Both the position numbers and the translations under genes were made by a program. Of a DNA stretch of 32,862 bases, positions 15,771-26,855 are shown piece by piece. Location: contig JAISEB010000263.1 in NCBI GenBank assembly GCA_031264395.1, positions 1 to 32,862 on the forward strand. Reading direction: 5' to 3'. Positions within the stretch are counted from its first letter, which is position 1. Every line of letters begins with the position of its first letter. A model generated the notes under the pieces. That model was not told the DNA's origin. It saw only the letters and a program-made list of their open reading frames with translations, and searched no databases. Source of the DNA: Treponema sp. (GTDB lineage: Bacteria > Spirochaetota > Spirochaetia > Treponematales > Breznakiellaceae).

Positions 15771-15801
15771 GCTGTTCCAAAAACTGAAGTTTTGGAACAG
15801 C
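15771..15801. repeat. Hairpin, class B loop (TGAA)
   Basis: GCTGTTCCAAAAAC - TGAA - GTTTTGGAACAGC. Confidence 0.9.
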
Positions 15802-15867
15802 CTCATTAAGTAACCGGTTTTGCGGACGGGCCGGGAAGCTCTAAAAACCGAAGTTTCCAGGGCCTCC

Positions 15868-20095: not shown

Positions 20096-21682
20096 ATGAT
20101 AGTTCTTGAAAAAATGACCCTTTGCGAGGTATGCCGCAAAGCGGAAGCGAAATACAGGAACAGGCCGGCCTTCCGCGTGTTTTCTGGCGGCGGCGTTTCC
20201 CGCGAAACAAGTTACCGCGAATGGGGGAATCTGTCGCGGAATTTCGCCGCGCGCCTTGCGTCAATGGGAATCGCGCCGGGTGGCAGGGTGATGATCCTCG
20301 CGGAAAACTGCCCCGGCTGGGCCGCCGCCTATTTTGGAACGGCCCTGGCCGGCATGGTGTCGGTGCCGGTGCTGACGGATTTCAGCCCCGTCCAGATAGC
20401 CGGCATCGCCGCGCACGCGGGTATTTCGGCCTGCTGCGTCACAGAGGGAACCCTGGCAAAGGCAATGGCCGCGATCCGGGAGGGCGGCGCGGAGGGAAAC
20501 CTGAACGCGGATTTCCCCCTGATTTACATAGACAGGCCCGAAAGTTTCGCCGCCCCTTCGCGGTTCCCGGACCCGGCGGAACCGGAGCCGGACGATCTTG
20601 CGTCCATCATCTACACAAGCGGAACCATGGGCGCAAGCAAGGGGGTAATGCTTTCCCACCGCAACATCGTCTTCTGCGCGGCGGCTTCCCGGTCCTTTGT
20701 AAAAATATACCCCCGCGACAGGCTTCTTTCCGTCCTTCCCCTTGCCCACGCGTATGAATGTACGCTGGGGCTCGTTACGCCGGTGATAAGCGGCGCTTCC
20801 GTTACCTACCTGGACAAGCCGCCTTCCCAAACGGTTCTCTCTCCGGCGCTCAAGGCAATACGGCCCACCGCCATGGTGACTGTCCCCCTGTTCATTGAAA
20901 AGATCTTCAGGCGGAACATGGCCCCCGCCCTCGCGGCAAACCCCCTGTTCCGTTTTCCCCCGGCCCGGCCGCTCGCGCTGTTCATAGCCGGGCGGAAGCT
21001 CGCGGCGGTGTTCGGCAAATCGATACGGTTCTTCGGCACGGGCGGCGCGCCGCTTCAGGCGGAAACCGAAGACTTTCTCCGCAAAATCAAATTCCCCTAC
21101 GCGCCCGGCTACGGCCTTACCGAGACGGCCCCGCTTGTCGCCGGAACAGGCCCTTTCCGCTTTCCCGCCCGTTCCTCAGGTTCCGTGCTAAAAGGCGTCC
21201 GCATACGCCTTTCCGCCGAGGGTGAAATACAGGTACAGGGCCCCAATGTCATGATGGGTTATTACCGGGACGAGGAAAGAACCAGGGAAGCCTTTACCCC
21301 CGACGGGTGGCTCAAAACCGGCGACACGGGTTCTCTGGACAGGAAGGGACGCCTGTACATAAAAGGGAGGCTCAAAAACATCATACTTGGCCCCTCGGGC
21401 GAAAACATCTACCCCGAGGAAATCGAAGAGCTCCTTACCTCCTCCGTACTGGTGGAAGACGCCCTTGTCCGCCCCGGAGAAAAAGGAGAGATTGTGGCGT
21501 TTGTGGTGTTAAGCGAAACGGCGAAGACCGCCGCGAACGCCCTTGGAAACGCGCTTGAAGAACTTAAAAAAATAGTCAACCGGCGTCTCGCGGCCTTTTC
21601 CCGCCTCAGCCGCATAGAGGTACAGAAGGAGCCTTTCAAAAAAACCCCGACAATGAAAATCAGAAGGTATCTTTACAGTTAG
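20096..21682 (+). CDS. Long-chain fatty-acid-CoA ligase-like AMP-forming synthetase
   Basis: IIYTSGTMGASKGVMLSHRNI, FGTGGAPLQAETEDFLRKI, YGLTETAPLVAG, WLKTGDTGSLDRKGRLYIKGRLKNIILGPSGENIYPEEIEE. ATG at 20096; the longer ORF start at 19847 would overlap the divergent gene. Confidence 0.9.
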   Translation: MIVLEKMTLCEVCRKAEAKYRNRPAFRVFSGGGVSRETSYREWGNLSRNFAARLASMGIAPGGRVMILAENCPGWAAAYFGTALAGMVSVPVLTDFSPVQIAGIAAHAGISACCVTEGTLAKAMAAIREGGAEGNLNADFPLIYIDRPESFAAPSRFPDPAEPEPDDLASIIYTSGTMGASKGVMLSHRNIVFCAAASRSFVKIYPRDRLLSVLPLAHAYECTLGLVTPVISGASVTYLDKPPSQTVLSPALKAIRPTAMVTVPLFIEKIFRRNMAPALAANPLFRFPPARPLALFIAGRKLAAVFGKSIRFFGTGGAPLQAETEDFLRKIKFPYAPGYGLTETAPLVAGTGPFRFPARSSGSVLKGVRIRLSAEGEIQVQGPNVMMGYYRDEERTREAFTPDGWLKTGDTGSLDRKGRLYIKGRLKNIILGPSGENIYPEEIEELLTSSVLVEDALVRPGEKGEIVAFVVLSETAKTAANALGNALEELKKIVNRRLAAFSRLSRIEVQKEPFKKTPTMKIRRYLYS

Positions 21683-21684
21683 TT

Positions 21685-21721
21685 GAGCTTGTTCTAAAAA
21701 CTGAAGTTTTGGAACAGCCTC
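21685..21721. repeat. Hairpin, class B loop (TGAA)
   Basis: GAGCTTGTTCTAAAAAC - TGAA - GTTTTGGAACAGCCTC, directly after the acyl-CoA ligase stop. Confidence 0.85.
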
Positions 21722-21734
21722 AGATGTTAAACAG

Positions 21735-21755
21735 CCTGTTATGTGCCATTATGCC
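21735..21755 (+). repeat. Left copy of 21-bp inverted repeat bracketing the R-M island
   Basis: CCTGTTATGTGCCATTATGCC; its reverse complement matches 24032-24052 at 20/21 positions. Confidence 0.85.
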
Positions 21756-21774
21756 TAACAATTTTTTATAGTAA

Positions 21775-22683
21775 TTAAAAATAACCTCTACTAAGAATTT
21801 CATTTTCTTCAATATCGTTTATTAAACTGGCAATATGTTCAATAAATCTCAAAAATGTATCATCAGCAAATGGATGAGAAGTAAGAAATTCTCTATAGGC
21901 ATCTATTTTTGAAATTCTTTCGATGGACGAAGAATAATTTTGCCTTTCCCCAGATCCAATTCTTTTTGCTTTTCGCAAAATAATTATTTCATCAATAGCA
22001 GTTGTACTTGAACTTATAGGTGTCATATCAAGCCATTCGCATAACAAAATATATTTTGCTGTTGGAACACTTGATTTTAAGTCTAACGCCGTTGCAGATG
22101 CTTCTTGGAACATCGTTTTATCCAAATTTGTTTTGCATTCACACGCCAAATAAGCAATGTTTGCTTCTCTTGTAATACTTTTTTCAAAAGACGGATAATG
22201 GCTTGATTTTAAATATATAGGACGTGCTATTGCAAAGTCTTGATCTTTTTGCTTTAAAACAATACCACCGCCAGCAGTTTCTATAGATAAAGTTGAATCA
22301 AACCTGATACCGGAAATACAAGAGGTAGGACCAAGGACAATATTTTTTTCTTTGATTTTTTCTTTAAAAATACAATTAACCAATAAAGGCAAAAATTCCT
22401 CTAATACAGTATTGTCCAGTTTTAACTGTCCCTTTTGTCTATATAAGAAATCTTCACCACTTGCAAATATAAGATCGATCTCTATGTAGTTTTTATACGT
22501 GTTTAATAATTCTACGGAACTGGAGACAATTTTATCAAATTTACCTTCCAGGTGTAATAGCGTGTCTCTCCAAATAACATATCTATCAATTGCTTCTTTA
22601 ATTTTTGTTTTATCTGAGGCAGGCAATTTGTTATTGTTTAACAATGCTTTAAGTTTATCACCGTGTGTTGTTGGAATATCCAT
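21775..22683 (-). CDS. Type II restriction endonuclease, probably Bpu10I-family
   Basis: 302 aa; FLYRQKGQLKLDNTVLEEFLPLLV and IAYLACECKTNLDKTMFQEASATALDLKSSVPTAKYILLCEWLDM (PD-(D/E)xK-like E-C-K). Immediately 3' of a DNA methyltransferase gene, with a GGAGG RBS in the methyltransferase 3' end. Confidence 0.65.
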   Translation of the reverse strand: MDIPTTHGDKLKALLNNNKLPASDKTKIKEAIDRYVIWRDTLLHLEGKFDKIVSSSVELLNTYKNYIEIDLIFASGEDFLYRQKGQLKLDNTVLEEFLPLLVNCIFKEKIKEKNIVLGPTSCISGIRFDSTLSIETAGGGIVLKQKDQDFAIARPIYLKSSHYPSFEKSITREANIAYLACECKTNLDKTMFQEASATALDLKSSVPTAKYILLCEWLDMTPISSSTTAIDEIIILRKAKRIGSGERQNYSSSIERISKIDAYREFLTSHPFADDTFLRFIEHIASLINDIEENEILSRGYF

Positions 22684-22685
22684 CT

Positions 22686-23900
22686 TTAAACCTCCACTAA
22701 CGAATTGATTTTATAAAAAGGTGATGGTTGTATATCAGATACCCTTTCCATTGCGTTGTATAAATCATCTAGCGATTCAGCAGGTGCAGACGATAAAACA
22801 CTTGTTAATAACCTATGGGCAATATCTTTTGATTTCGGTATTGGATTTGTTATATTTTTTGATGAAGTAAAATGCAAAATATCCTCATAAATATTTATAC
22901 CATATCTATTAACAAAAACTCGTTCTTGTCTGTTTAATAATCCCATATCCGAACAGGTACAAGCAATCTCAGCGACGATCTCGCCATTTAAAAAATTGGT
23001 TTTTCTAACAGATGACTCCCTCCCAACAATAAACACTATCCTTGAATTATTTTTACAAATACGATTTAATTCTGTAAAAACTAAAGCCATGTCAATGCAA
23101 TATTGTATAACAGTATAAAACCTGTTTCCCCTGTTTTTTCTATTTGATCCTATTTCTGCTTGAGCAGATGGTAAAACATTTCCGTTTAAATACTCAGATG
23201 AACTTCTATACTGCTGATGATAATTGAAAACATTGATGTACGGAGGTGAAGTTATTACAAAATCAATTAAGGAATTGGGAAAAGATGTTTCTCTTGCATC
23301 TTCTTGAAGTACAGATATTTTTTGCGTTGAAATCGGCAAAGACTTTATCAAATCCTTGATCTTGAACCATTTCATTACCAACCATTTTTTTGAAAAATTT
23401 TTCTTATAAAAATCAATTAATATTATAAAACAGTCTAGTAATATTTTGTATTTTGAATCGGAATATTTATCGACCAATTTTTCTATCTGAATTATAACAT
23501 TATCATTTTCTGCAAATAAAGATTCTGAGTACAATATTCCATATTTAATTAAAATATTTTCAAACTCGTTTACTAATAATATTCTATACGCAAAATCGTA
23601 ATTTATTAATTCATAAATTTTTGATAGACAAATAGCCGCATAATTTATATCTGTTCCATAGGTTTGTCTATGTAACTCACCAGCTTCCAAAAGAGTTGTT
23701 CCACTTCCTAAGAAAGGATCATATATTGTATCTACACTTTTTGAATAGTAATTTAATAACACCTGAACTAGCTGTGGAGAAAATTGCCCATTCCAAGGCA
23801 GAGGATTAGTCTTATATCGATTATCTATATTCAACAAATTTTGCTCTATTGAATTATTATCAAGGGGAATATTTTCGAAAAACCCATTAAAATGCCCCAT
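22686..23900 (-). CDS. Site-specific DNA methyltransferase (TSPPY type, probably N4-cytosine)
   Basis: From ATG at 23900: MGHFNGFFENIPLDNN...IYDPFLGSGTTLLEAGELHRQTYGTDIN...DFVITSPPYINVFNYHQQYR. ORF-track extension to 24140 rejected. Confidence 0.88.
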   Translation of the reverse strand: MGHFNGFFENIPLDNNSIEQNLLNIDNRYKTNPLPWNGQFSPQLVQVLLNYYSKSVDTIYDPFLGSGTTLLEAGELHRQTYGTDINYAAICLSKIYELINYDFAYRILLVNEFENILIKYGILYSESLFAENDNVIIQIEKLVDKYSDSKYKILLDCFIILIDFYKKNFSKKWLVMKWFKIKDLIKSLPISTQKISVLQEDARETSFPNSLIDFVITSPPYINVFNYHQQYRSSSEYLNGNVLPSAQAEIGSNRKNRGNRFYTVIQYCIDMALVFTELNRICKNNSRIVFIVGRESSVRKTNFLNGEIVAEIACTCSDMGLLNRQERVFVNRYGINIYEDILHFTSSKNITNPIPKSKDIAHRLLTSVLSSAPAESLDDLYNAMERVSDIQPSPFYKINSLVEV

Positions 23901-23929
23901 TTTTATCCATTTTCTCCTGTATATTCTGT

Positions 23930-23958
23930 ATAATATCACAGAATGAAACCTTTGACAA
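23930..23958 (-). promoter_or_regulatory. sigma70-like promoter of the R-M operon
   Basis: Minus strand TTGTCA (23958-23953), 17-nt spacer, TATTAT (23935-23930), followed by AGGAG at 23918-23914. Confidence 0.65.
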
Positions 23959-24031
23959 GATCCCCCCCCTATGGATTTTGTCCCCGATGGATTTTTATGT
24001 AAAAAACATAAAGTACAGTATATTGCGGGAC

Positions 24032-24052
24032 GGCATAAGGGCACATAACAGG
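24032..24052 (-). repeat. Right copy of 21-bp inverted repeat bracketing the R-M island
   Basis: GGCATAAGGGCACATAACAGG, inverted relative to 21735-21755 (one mismatch). Confidence 0.85.
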
Positions 24053-24053
24053 A

Positions 24054-24200
24054 CTGTAACTGTACGCCGCCAGTAGGCGGCCAGGCTATACAAAACACCA
24101 GTCGGGCTTGCGCCCTTTGCGGTGTTTTGTTCCGCCACATTTTTTGTTTGCGAGAAACTGCTTGTACAGTTTCTCGTAAACAAAAAAACGTCAGTTACAG
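24054..24200. other. 147-bp cloverleaf-like palindromic element (closing stem plus three hairpin arms)
   Basis: Closing stem CTGTAACTG (24054-24062)/CAGTTACAG (24192-24200). Arm 1: GCCGCC-AGTA-GGCGGC (24066-24081). Arm 2: ACAAAACACC...GGTGTTTTGT (24090-24130) with inner GGGC-TTGC-GCCC. Arm 3: TTTTTTGTTT.GC.GAGAAACTG-CTTGTA-CAGTTTCTC.GT.AAACAAAAAA (24140-24187). Confidence 0.75.
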
Positions 24201-24217
24201 CCGAAACGAAAGACGCG

Positions 24218-24934
24218 TCACACGATCCCCTTTTGCGCTTCCCGGAAAATGCTTATAAATTCGGACGTGCTTATGACCTTTGCCCCGAGTTTTTCTTTAT
24301 AGTCCAGAGGCATTCCCAGATCCCAAAAAGCGAAACCGTGATCCGAAAGCCAGCGGGAAGTAAGGATCATCTGTACGGTCCCCGCATTGCTTTCTTCCCG
24401 GTAGCCTGAATAGCTGGTGTAGACCCGTCCGGCGACGACCCCGAATTCCCCGGCCCGGAGCGTCCCGTCACGGTAGACGCCGAAAGAAAAAGGCCGCGCC
24501 CGGCTGCCGCTTTTTTCGCGGACTTTACGGAGAAGATCGAGCAGGGGCGGAGTGAGCCAGCCGCCGCCATGAACGGCGACGCATTTATCGACAATGAGAT
24601 CAAAATCCTCGTCCGCCCGCAGTTCGTACCGCGAAAGAAAACGCCTCACGGATCTGCTTTCGTGAAGATCGGGGAAGAAGAGAACCGACCGCCATATATG
24701 GTGCCTGGGCACAAGGACGGTAATGACCGAATCTTCGGTGCTGGCGGGACCCGACATAAGGAGGAACCCTTCGGCCATAAGACCCGCGGCGAAATCAGGA
24801 TCAAAATCCAGTGCCAGGCACTCTTCCTCCGCGTATCCGGTTTCCATGATGGCGTCGATGACGCGGCGGGGATCGTCTTTGGGGGAAACAAGAATATGCC
24901 CCGACGACGTATAGGAAAGATTAAACGCGTCCAT
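24218..24934 (-). CDS. Leucyl/phenylalanyl-tRNA-protein transferase-like (divergent Aat family)
   Basis: LVPRHHIWRSVLFFPDLHESRSVRRFLSRYELRADEDFDLIVDKCVAVHGGGWLTPPLLDLL and GFAFWDLGMPLDYKEKLGAKVISTSEFISIF parallel the Aat signatures (LHISRSMKRF, W-I/L-T, SLGA...). Alternative start at 24946. Confidence 0.75.
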   Translation of the reverse strand: MDAFNLSYTSSGHILVSPKDDPRRVIDAIMETGYAEEECLALDFDPDFAAGLMAEGFLLMSGPASTEDSVITVLVPRHHIWRSVLFFPDLHESRSVRRFLSRYELRADEDFDLIVDKCVAVHGGGWLTPPLLDLLRKVREKSGSRARPFSFGVYRDGTLRAGEFGVVAGRVYTSYSGYREESNAGTVQMILTSRWLSDHGFAFWDLGMPLDYKEKLGAKVISTSEFISIFREAQKGIV

Positions 24935-26855
24935 TTTCCTCTTCACCGTGTTCCCGTATCACCGCCATAAAGCCCTCCCCGTATCTTTCCAGTTTCACCG
25001 ATCCCACGCCTCTTATGTTCAGAAACTGGCCGGGGGTAAGGGGCCGCTTCCGGCACATTTCCCGGAGGCTGGAGTCGGGGAAAATAATATAGGCGGGCGC
25101 GGCGGCTTCCTTCGCCAGGCGGTTCCGCAGTTCCCTGAGCTTTAGAAAAAGCGCGTCTTCCGCGCCGCCGGACTCAGGATCCCCGCCTGAAGAAGGCGCC
25201 TTTTTCCGGTTTTCTTTTCCCTTTTCCGCGTCTTCCGGGCCCGGGCCGCGCCGTTCCCGCGGCGCGCCCCCGTGCGTACGCGGCGCGTCTTTGGGCAGCA
25301 TCATCTTGAGGATCTTCCCTTCGCTTACAATCTCCCTCCAGCGCGGCCCCAGGCGCAGAACCGGGTATTCGTCGCCCTCAAGGCCAAGGTACTGTTCCGC
25401 TATGAGGTGATCCGTTATCCGCCGGATCAGGCGGGGATCCGTGTCCGCCATGATGCCGTACGTGCTCAGGGTATCGCAGCGGGAGGCGCGGATCTTTTCG
25501 TTTTTATCGCCCCGGAGTATGCCTGTCACCATGGTTTTGCCGAAGGACCGGCCCCGCTCGGCGAGCCTGAACACGCAGGAGATAATTTTCCGCGCCTCAA
25601 GGGCAACGTCGGCCTCCTCGTAAACGGTGTTGCAGTTGGAGCAGTTGCCGCACCAGGCGGGGCCTGATTCCCCAAAATAAGAGAGCAGGCGTGAGCGGAG
25701 GCAGTCGGAAGCGGTGGCGTAGAAGGTCATTGCTTTGAGGAGTTCCAGATTGTGTTCCACAAGAGCCTGATCTTTTACATCGTCTTCATCCTGGCTGTTA
25801 CGGATAAGGTAGGTGTTGATCCGCACGTCCTGCGGGCTGTAAAGGAGAATGCAATCCGCCTTTTCCCCGTTCCGGCCGGCCCGGCCCGCCTCCTGGTAAT
25901 AACTTTCGATATTTTTAGGCATGTTGTAGTGGATCACAAAGGACACGCCCGGCTTGTCTATCCCCATGCCGAAAGCGTTGGTGGCCACCATAACGGGTTT
26001 CCTGTCACAGATAAAATCATCCTGATTGTCCCGCCGTTCCCGGTCGTTAAGGCCGGCGTGGTACCGGGTTACGCCGAAACCTTCGGCATCAAGGGCGCGG
26101 CACACTTCCTCCACGGTCTTCCGGGTGGAGCAGTAGATGATCCCGCTCTTGTCCCGCCGGGAAGAAAGGCATTCCAGCAGGGCGGCGAACCTGTCGCGGG
26201 GCTTCTGCACCTCAAAATACAGATTGCCCCGGTCAAAACCCGTGGTCAGGCTGTAGGGATCGCGGAGGGACAGGGCGCGCCTGATGTCGTCTTTTACCCT
26301 GCCTGTGGCGGTGGCGGTAAAGGCGGCGGTGATGGGCCGCGTTTTGAGCCGGCGGATAAAGGCGGTGATCTCAAGATAGCTGGGACGGAAATCGTGGCCC
26401 CACTGGGACACGCAGTGGGCCTCGTCTATGACCACAAGGGCGATTCCCGGCGAGGAAGAAGACGGTTCGGCAAGCCGGGAGGGGAACCCCTTTTGCAGCC
26501 GTTCCGGGGCAATGTAGAGGATGCGGTATTCACCCCGGAAGGCGCGAAAAACCGTCTCCGTGTATTCGCCCGGGTCAAGGGAACTGTTAAGAAAAGCGGC
26601 GGAAATCCCCGCGGCCTCCAGGGCGTTTACCTGATCTTTCATAAGGGAGATAAGGGGGGAAATGACCAGAGTAAGGCCCTCCAGAAGCATGGCGGGGATC
26701 TGGTAGCAGAGGGACTTTCCGGCCCCGGTCGGCATTACCGCAAGCACGTCCCGGCCGGCGAGGATGGCGTCTATAACCTCTTCCTGGCCGGGGCGGAAAC
26801 GCGGGTACCCGAAACAGCGCCTGAGTATGTCCGCTTTGCCTGCGCCGCCCGTCAC
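24921..26855 (-). CDS. recQ: ATP-dependent DNA helicase RecQ
   Basis: FRPGQEEVIDAILAGRDVLAVMPTGAGKSLCYQIPA, VIDEAHCVSQWGHDFRPSY, ATNAFGMGIDKPGVSFVIHYNMP, YYQEAGRAGRNGE, C-terminal HRDC-like region. Confidence 0.95.
   Translation of the reverse strand: MTGGAGKADILRRCFGYPRFRPGQEEVIDAILAGRDVLAVMPTGAGKSLCYQIPAMLLEGLTLVISPLISLMKDQVNALEAAGISAAFLNSSLDPGEYTETVFRAFRGEYRILYIAPERLQKGFPSRLAEPSSSSPGIALVVIDEAHCVSQWGHDFRPSYLEITAFIRRLKTRPITAAFTATATGRVKDDIRRALSLRDPYSLTTGFDRGNLYFEVQKPRDRFAALLECLSSRRDKSGIIYCSTRKTVEEVCRALDAEGFGVTRYHAGLNDRERRDNQDDFICDRKPVMVATNAFGMGIDKPGVSFVIHYNMPKNIESYYQEAGRAGRNGEKADCILLYSPQDVRINTYLIRNSQDEDDVKDQALVEHNLELLKAMTFYATASDCLRSRLLSYFGESGPAWCGNCSNCNTVYEEADVALEARKIISCVFRLAERGRSFGKTMVTGILRGDKNEKIRASRCDTLSTYGIMADTDPRLIRRITDHLIAEQYLGLEGDEYPVLRLGPRWREIVSEGKILKMMLPKDAPRTHGGAPRERRGPGPEDAEKGKENRKKAPSSGGDPESGGAEDALFLKLRELRNRLAKEAAAPAYIIFPDSSLREMCRKRPLTPGQFLNIRGVGSVKLERYGEGFMAVIREHGEEENGRV

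Follow-up and report, generated by a model that had tools for sequence, protein, structure and literature searches.

What brought a restriction-modification (R-M) gene pair, bracketed by a 21-bp inverted repeat, into the chromosome of a termite-gut spirochaete (Treponema sp.) in whose incomplete genome no suitable recombinase was found? The locus lies in the window, by which we mean the whole stretch of 32,862 nucleotides analysed here (assembly GCA_031264395.1, contig JAISEB010000263.1; contig C12 of a 2.9 Mb genome in 354 contigs, 85% complete). Our answer is that the pair is very probably a solitary integron-type cassette (21739-24208), residing in the chromosome outside any integron and drawn from a spirochaete integron system with an IntI-related recombinase. 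The argument is carried by an empty site in a sibling species that gives the exact junctions, by a family of attC-like sites and cassettes with specific matched ends in relatives, and by loci of other genera in which a tyrosine recombinase gene stands directly ahead of such cassettes.

The inverted repeat and the empty site

A preliminary description of this DNA had reported a 21-bp inverted repeat with one mismatch, and 20 of the 21 positions of its two arms are indeed complementary:

21735-21755: left arm, CCTGTTATGTGCCATTATGCC
24032-24052: right arm, GGCATAAGGGCACATAACAGG

No comparable pair more than 100 nt apart arose in any of 300 block-shuffled copies of positions 21000-25000. As had also been described, the arms enclose the methyltransferase and endonuclease genes together with a promoter-like site, and the enclosed DNA is AT-rich (GC about 30%) between GC-rich flanks (about 59%).

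Through the neighbouring gene at 24218-24946 we reached the orthologous locus in a same-genus genome of a sibling species (G050:C1), whose left flank (2,183 nt aligned) is 95.3% identical to that of the window and whose right flank (2,799 nt aligned) is 94.3% identical. Looking for an empty site in a related strain had been proposed as a check, and G050 provides one. With a slash at each junction, the empty allele reads ...TTAGGGCTGTTAAACGGACCGCCTG/AAAGACGCGTCAC... (in short, GCCTG/AAAGACGCGTCAC) and the filled allele of the window reads ...GTTAAACAGCCTG/TTATGTGCCATTATGCC ... CAGCCGAAACG/AAAGACGCGTCAC... (in short, GCCTG/TTATGTGCC…CAGCCGAAACG/AAAGACGCGTCAC). The locus is thereby divided as follows:

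21735-21738, unstranded: CCTG, target DNA, with the junction after the G at 21738 (G050 empty site)
21739-24208, plus strand: whole inserted cassette, 2,470 bp, 32% GC (empty-site comparison; ends ambiguous by one base, the shared G)
21739-21755, plus strand: cassette start, R' remnant TTATG and cassette-specific extension TGCCATTATGCC (empty site; start-type extension by comparison with array cassettes)
24032-24049, plus strand: cassette end, cassette-specific extension and R'' box (CATAAC at 24044-24049)
24043-24208, plus strand: attC-like site, 166 nt, from R'' to CCGAAACG; branched hairpin with a CTGTAACTG/CAGTTACAG stem (folding; likeness to attC beside integrases in G119 and G188)
24209-24221, unstranded: AAAGACGCGTCAC, target DNA resuming, identical to the empty site (G050)

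The boundary falls after the G of a GTT core and no target-site duplication accompanies it (none had been obvious in the preliminary description either), which is the junction of an integron cassette. The four bases that open the left arm are target DNA and not repeat, because the empty site reads GCCTG/AAAGACG; their match to the right arm suggests either coincidence or a site preference. On the other side the mobile unit runs 156 nt beyond the right arm, up to 24208. The 21-bp inverted repeat thus marks the outer margin of a gene cassette of integron type and not a transposon end. We had also entertained the left arm as a truncated attC, and rejected this on the same evidence that CCTG belongs to the target. 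Such a structure would be produced if a circular cassette with one attC used its R' box to recombine into the chromosome just behind a G; the outcome would be a bare cassette start (G/TTATG) on one side and a whole attC (...CCGAAACG/) on the other, without duplication.

The same junctions bear on the other form of mobility that had been considered, namely a non-autonomous transposon, either similar to a miniature inverted-repeat transposable element or a cargo element, that uses the 21-mers as terminal inverted repeats and a transposase supplied in trans. Inverted ends and an AT-rich cargo without its own recombinase are what such an element would show; however, the target duplication is absent, CCTG in the left arm belongs to the target, the ends are not symmetric but differ in kind (a bare cassette start against a full attC), and the inserted unit, which reaches 156 nt beyond the right arm, ends in a hairpin. 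Together with the behaviour of related sequences described below, this leaves the transposon extremely improbable. The proposed mobile cassette survives as a recombination-defined, trans-mobilised unit, given the empty site in a sibling species, a copy at another locus elsewhere and a genome lacking a suitable recombinase, whereas its version as a non-autonomous transposon with terminal repeats finds no support.

The attC-like site and the cassette arrays of relatives

The site at the right end of the cassette has the build of an attC: a long palindrome, imperfect, in which the R and L arms are conserved and the middle varies. When the adjoining extension is included (180 nt), its fold reaches -49.7 kcal/mol with a z of -7.6, and the site would work as a folded single strand. 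It is 73% identical over its full length to the site beside the integrase of G119 and 84% identical over 101 nt to the first attC in G188. Among 56 complete elements, measured from conserved arm to conserved arm, length varies from 95 to 223 nt. The L arms covary inside one hairpin (454 paired cells, against a mean of 424 and a maximum of 442 in 5,000 shuffles), and the R boxes inside one hairpin do not (287 paired cells against 285).

Searching the own genome with the 21-mer at up to three mismatches returned the two arms, one clear match in contig C226 and one in C315; the last, in GC-rich surroundings without an element, was taken as chance. The DNA outside the right arm also matches contigs C184 and C262. 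The preliminary description held that its proposal would fail if the 21-mer were a common genome-wide repeat unrelated to insertion boundaries; relatives of the 21-mer do occur throughout the genome, but they are themselves insertion boundaries. A site pattern built from these relatives and from the matches to the right outer DNA found 12 sites each in G000, G050 and G082 and 2 in G110, against 0-2 for a reversed control; these four genomes belong to a single genus. Viewed in context, most of the sites form one end of a palindromic element that adjoins AT-rich DNA. For the opposite end of the element, a pattern matches 118 of 200 family genomes and its control none.

In several relatives the elements stand in tandem and in one orientation, spaced by roughly 500-1,000 nt, and each interval holds one or two genes, which are AT-rich and in most cases read towards the CATAACAGG end. 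The 14 nt inside both boxes of one cassette match each other at a mean of 9.9 of 14 positions (p about 1e-4), as compared with 6.1 of 14 across one hairpin and 5.8 of 14 for random cassette pairs. Core complementarity is therefore a property of the circular cassette and not of the linear site; the end match is complete only in the circle. Matched cassette ends and the covariation pattern together follow the logic of integron cassettes, in which the last bases of an attC belong to the next cassette. Cassette ends and arrays add to the case against the transposon, since a transposon family has common ends whereas these inner ends are cassette-specific, and since the arrays lie on the same strand downstream of an integrase.

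The cassette in the window conforms to the arrays at both ends: its left extension shares with array cassette starts the A at position 5 and the end CCTA, and its right extension ends in CCGT, as on the attC side of array cassettes. In the array cassettes, as in that of the window (21744-21755 and 24032-24043), the two inner ends match save for a regular difference at position 5, where A stands at the cassette start and usually G, in the window C, on the attC side; this difference may mark direction. Contigs of these assemblies often stop at or near attC elements (many loci), and therefore arrays and adjacent integrases are probably under-assembled.

The recombinase of the arrays

A looser search of repeat-rich genomes brought out a tyrosine recombinase of about 384-413 aa (~390), which is present in 74 of the 200 family genomes and 35 of 57 genera. 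Its gene lies immediately upstream of AT-rich cassettes, on the same strand, in G019, G039, G119 and G126, and elsewhere it is found near arrays or at contig ends (in G118 no array comes directly after it). Downstream of the recombinase gene, seven loci have an attI-like site, consisting of a G/TTATG-type box and a matched first cassette whose ends agree at 10-11 of 12 positions and finish in CATAAC or CCTAAC. The complete order of integrase, attI-like site and first cassette is directly observed in G039 on a complete contig of 4.06 Mb. Integrase gene, attI-like site and array are thus found together, as in an integron platform, in genera other than that of the window. The cassette in the window would have come from a system of this kind, in which arrays of AT-rich cassettes with attC sites of 95-223 nt are accompanied by an attI-like site and by the ~390-aa recombinase related to IntI.

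The recombinase carries PF00589 and PF13495, and scores below the cut-offs of TIGR02249 (186-219 bits against 265) and NF040815. It lacks the IntI-specific additional domain, the insert being missing in the alignment. Its best relative in the PDB, by sequence and by fold, is IntI4; Foldseek returned only the IntI/Xer fold for an AlphaFold model of low global confidence (pTM 0.45). In a quick tree with long branches it groups with IntI as a sister, away from XerC/D (SH-aLRT 97). Judged by junction and attC, then, the element behaves as an integron cassette, while the platform integrase departs from IntI by the missing domain. We also note an extra N-terminal domain (residues 1 to about 110; L250-L258) with a motif like YLFYE...RIPFYDYDK...GxWD...FxLP, which matches nothing in Pfam; in G022 a stretch of similar appearance stands ahead of the canonical IntI.

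Canonical IntI, scoring above the TIGR02249 cut-off, occurs in 5 of 150 family genomes (G022, G028, G038, G070 and G099; L035-L044), and the attC pattern was found in none of these five. Canonical IntI was accordingly rejected as the driver of the arrays, and the family seems to contain two integron lineages side by side. A canonical IntI from a neighbouring genus might nonetheless have moved this one cassette in place of the domain-lacking recombinase, for such enzymes are present in the family, and the use of attG sites in genomes by IntI is established (Loot et al., 2024, as cited in PMC12901181). Against this, genomes with canonical IntI are without the attC pattern and arrays of the present type adjoin the other recombinase, and we consider a canonical IntI quite improbable here.

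The restriction-modification genes

The genes carried by the cassette, assigned from sequence, are the following:

21775-22683, minus strand: predicted restriction endonuclease, Bpu10I family, 302 aa (PF09549, 1.4e-82)
22686-23900, minus strand: predicted DNA methyltransferase, N6/N4 type, 404 aa (PF01555; motifs DPFLGSGTT and TSPPY by eye)
23930-23958, minus strand: promoter-like site TTGTCA-17-TATTAT upstream of the methyltransferase gene (consensus match only)

The start of the methyltransferase was picked by comparison with a relative (L166). Both genes are uninterrupted and adjoin, as expected of a putative Bpu10I-type Type II R-M system, and the pair would be active. Like other Bpu10I-type systems it has a PF09549 endonuclease over the full length beside an N6/N4 methyltransferase gene; it differs in being borne on a cassette, where each of the two enzymes has a single gene. 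On the minus strand eight consecutive G (23962-23969) lie just upstream of the -35 element of the promoter-like site, where the relative in L166 has four G, and this run could possibly be a phase-variable switch of the pair.

The endonuclease gene occurs in 3 of the 200 family genomes. In Cd354_bin14 (Treponema sp. of another genus; JAIRND010000046) an R-M pair with a 75%-identical endonuclease sits in the usual direction between ...CAGCCGGAACGTTATGCGAAATGGTACGCC and GCGCACCACTTCGCATAACAGGGCC..., which makes it an ordinary, canonical cassette with matched ends, its genes ending at the attC. In Gx481_bin132 (Spirochaetales bacterium; JAISAF010000313) an 89%-identical endonuclease stands at a different locus, ahead of a gene that on inspection by eye resembles guaB, and its nucleotide match to the window stops at the CATAAC box.

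This distribution also bears on the direction of the event. The cassette could be ancestral at this site and have been lost from G050 by precise excision, and outgroups do not settle the direction (the ligase neighbour is missing at the locus in G110, and G082 has no close orthologue). However, the usual attC-by-attC excision is unavailable because only one attC is present, and gain is favoured because the endonuclease gene is so rare and the attC single; the close copy at another locus in Gx481_bin132 likewise speaks against ancestry. Ancestral presence followed by loss is thus unlikely, and the event would be a gain in the lineage of the window.

Evidence against a solitary cassette

Several observations weigh against an insertion by the treponeme integron system. 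The recombinase was not found in the genus of the window, where the four genomes (62-87% complete) yielded XerC and XerD only, and the insertion therefore needed an enzyme that is unassembled, lost or donor-borne; we infer that the treponeme recombinase made the insertion, whether it was supplied in trans, has since been lost or lies in the unassembled part. Across the family, moreover, recombinase and pattern are not associated in their presence (the pattern in 42 of 74 genomes with the recombinase and 76 of 126 without), possibly owing to a pattern that suits some genera too narrowly and to the incompleteness of the assemblies. The argument rests on physical linkage and not on co-occurrence. 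The core boxes of the window, GTTATGT and ACATAAC, depart from the classical 7-bp consensus GTTRRRY and RYYYAAC by T for R at one position (box GTTATGY); the variants GTTAGGC and CCTAAC of the family do fit. The R-M genes run opposite to the attC orientation of the arrays, with their start and not their end adjoining the attC. We take gene direction ending at the attC as a usual, not an obligatory, feature of cassettes, and the reversed genes are workable because they have their own promoter-like site. Lastly, the window and G050 are not fully alike to the left of the junction, being set apart by a small indel a few bases away from it and by a separate hairpin repeat. This repeat (TTGAGCTTGTTCTAAAAACTGAAGTTTTGGAACAGCCTC), at 21683-21722 and again at 15773-15805, has about 20 copies in the own genome, is missing from the G050 locus and is unrelated to the cassette.

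The composition of the genus invites one further alternative, in which XerC/XerD moved the cassette at dif-like sites, as in pdif modules. The genus yielded no related recombinases besides these two, a lack that their action would account for, and the left end holds GCATAATG, which is reminiscent of dif. Yet the part resembling GCATAATG is specific to this cassette and does not recur in others, so there is no common dif layout; the sites are long hairpins with covarying L arms and not 28-bp sites; and a dedicated recombinase heads the arrays in other genera. We hold XerC/XerD transfer to be highly improbable, and insertion of an integron-type cassette by the treponeme recombinase remains our preferred account.

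Relation to known integrons

Orphan attC clusters and single attC sites are termed CALIN and SALIN in integron surveys. The present cassettes resemble them in being bounded by attC in an assembly without an integrase, and differ in having a candidate integrase, outside the IntI profile, in related genera. The chromosomal integrons of the T. denticola type (PMC3607928) share the spirochaete host, a tyrosine recombinase, attC hairpins and arrays of small genes; here, in contrast, the attC sites are longer (95-223 nt), the integrase lacks the IntI-specific domain, cassettes are singly dispersed, and the hosts are termite-gut lineages for which a 2013 study (PMC3607928) reported an absence of integrons, namely in T. 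azotonutricium and T. primitia. It is known that integron cassettes can enter bacterial genomes at attG sites (Loot et al., 2024, as cited in PMC12901181); such an event likewise places a single cassette at a chromosomal site other than attI, keeps the attC and leaves no duplication. The present case differs from it as a natural insertion with an empty allele in a sibling species and no canonical IntI.

We found no report of integrons in termite-gut spirochaetes in the open-access literature, and the integron system of these bacteria is apparently undescribed, its novelty being provisional. On balance we think that termite-gut treponemes harbour a widespread, separate integron lineage, in which an integrase without the IntI-specific domain captures attC cassettes that often land in ordinary chromosomal sites, and that the window is one such landing with its empty site. 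Integrons would then extend to spirochaetes reported without them (PMC3607928). The IntI-specific domain has been described as defining and necessary, and survey software relies on its profile (PMC9668308); integrons with a domain-lacking integrase would be missed by such surveys and their arrays filed as orphan attC clusters. They would also offer a natural test of what the domain is for, and the present locus a base-resolution view of how a defence cassette has landed in nature away from any integron.

Other cassette sites in the genus

For a second empty site, in the comparison of G050:C22 with G000:C179, the junction is blurred by other sequence. At one further chromosomal site (...ACTAAAACAAGTG/TTAGGCG), the two sibling species carry different cassettes (G000:C184, L033 about 5548; G050:C44, L092).
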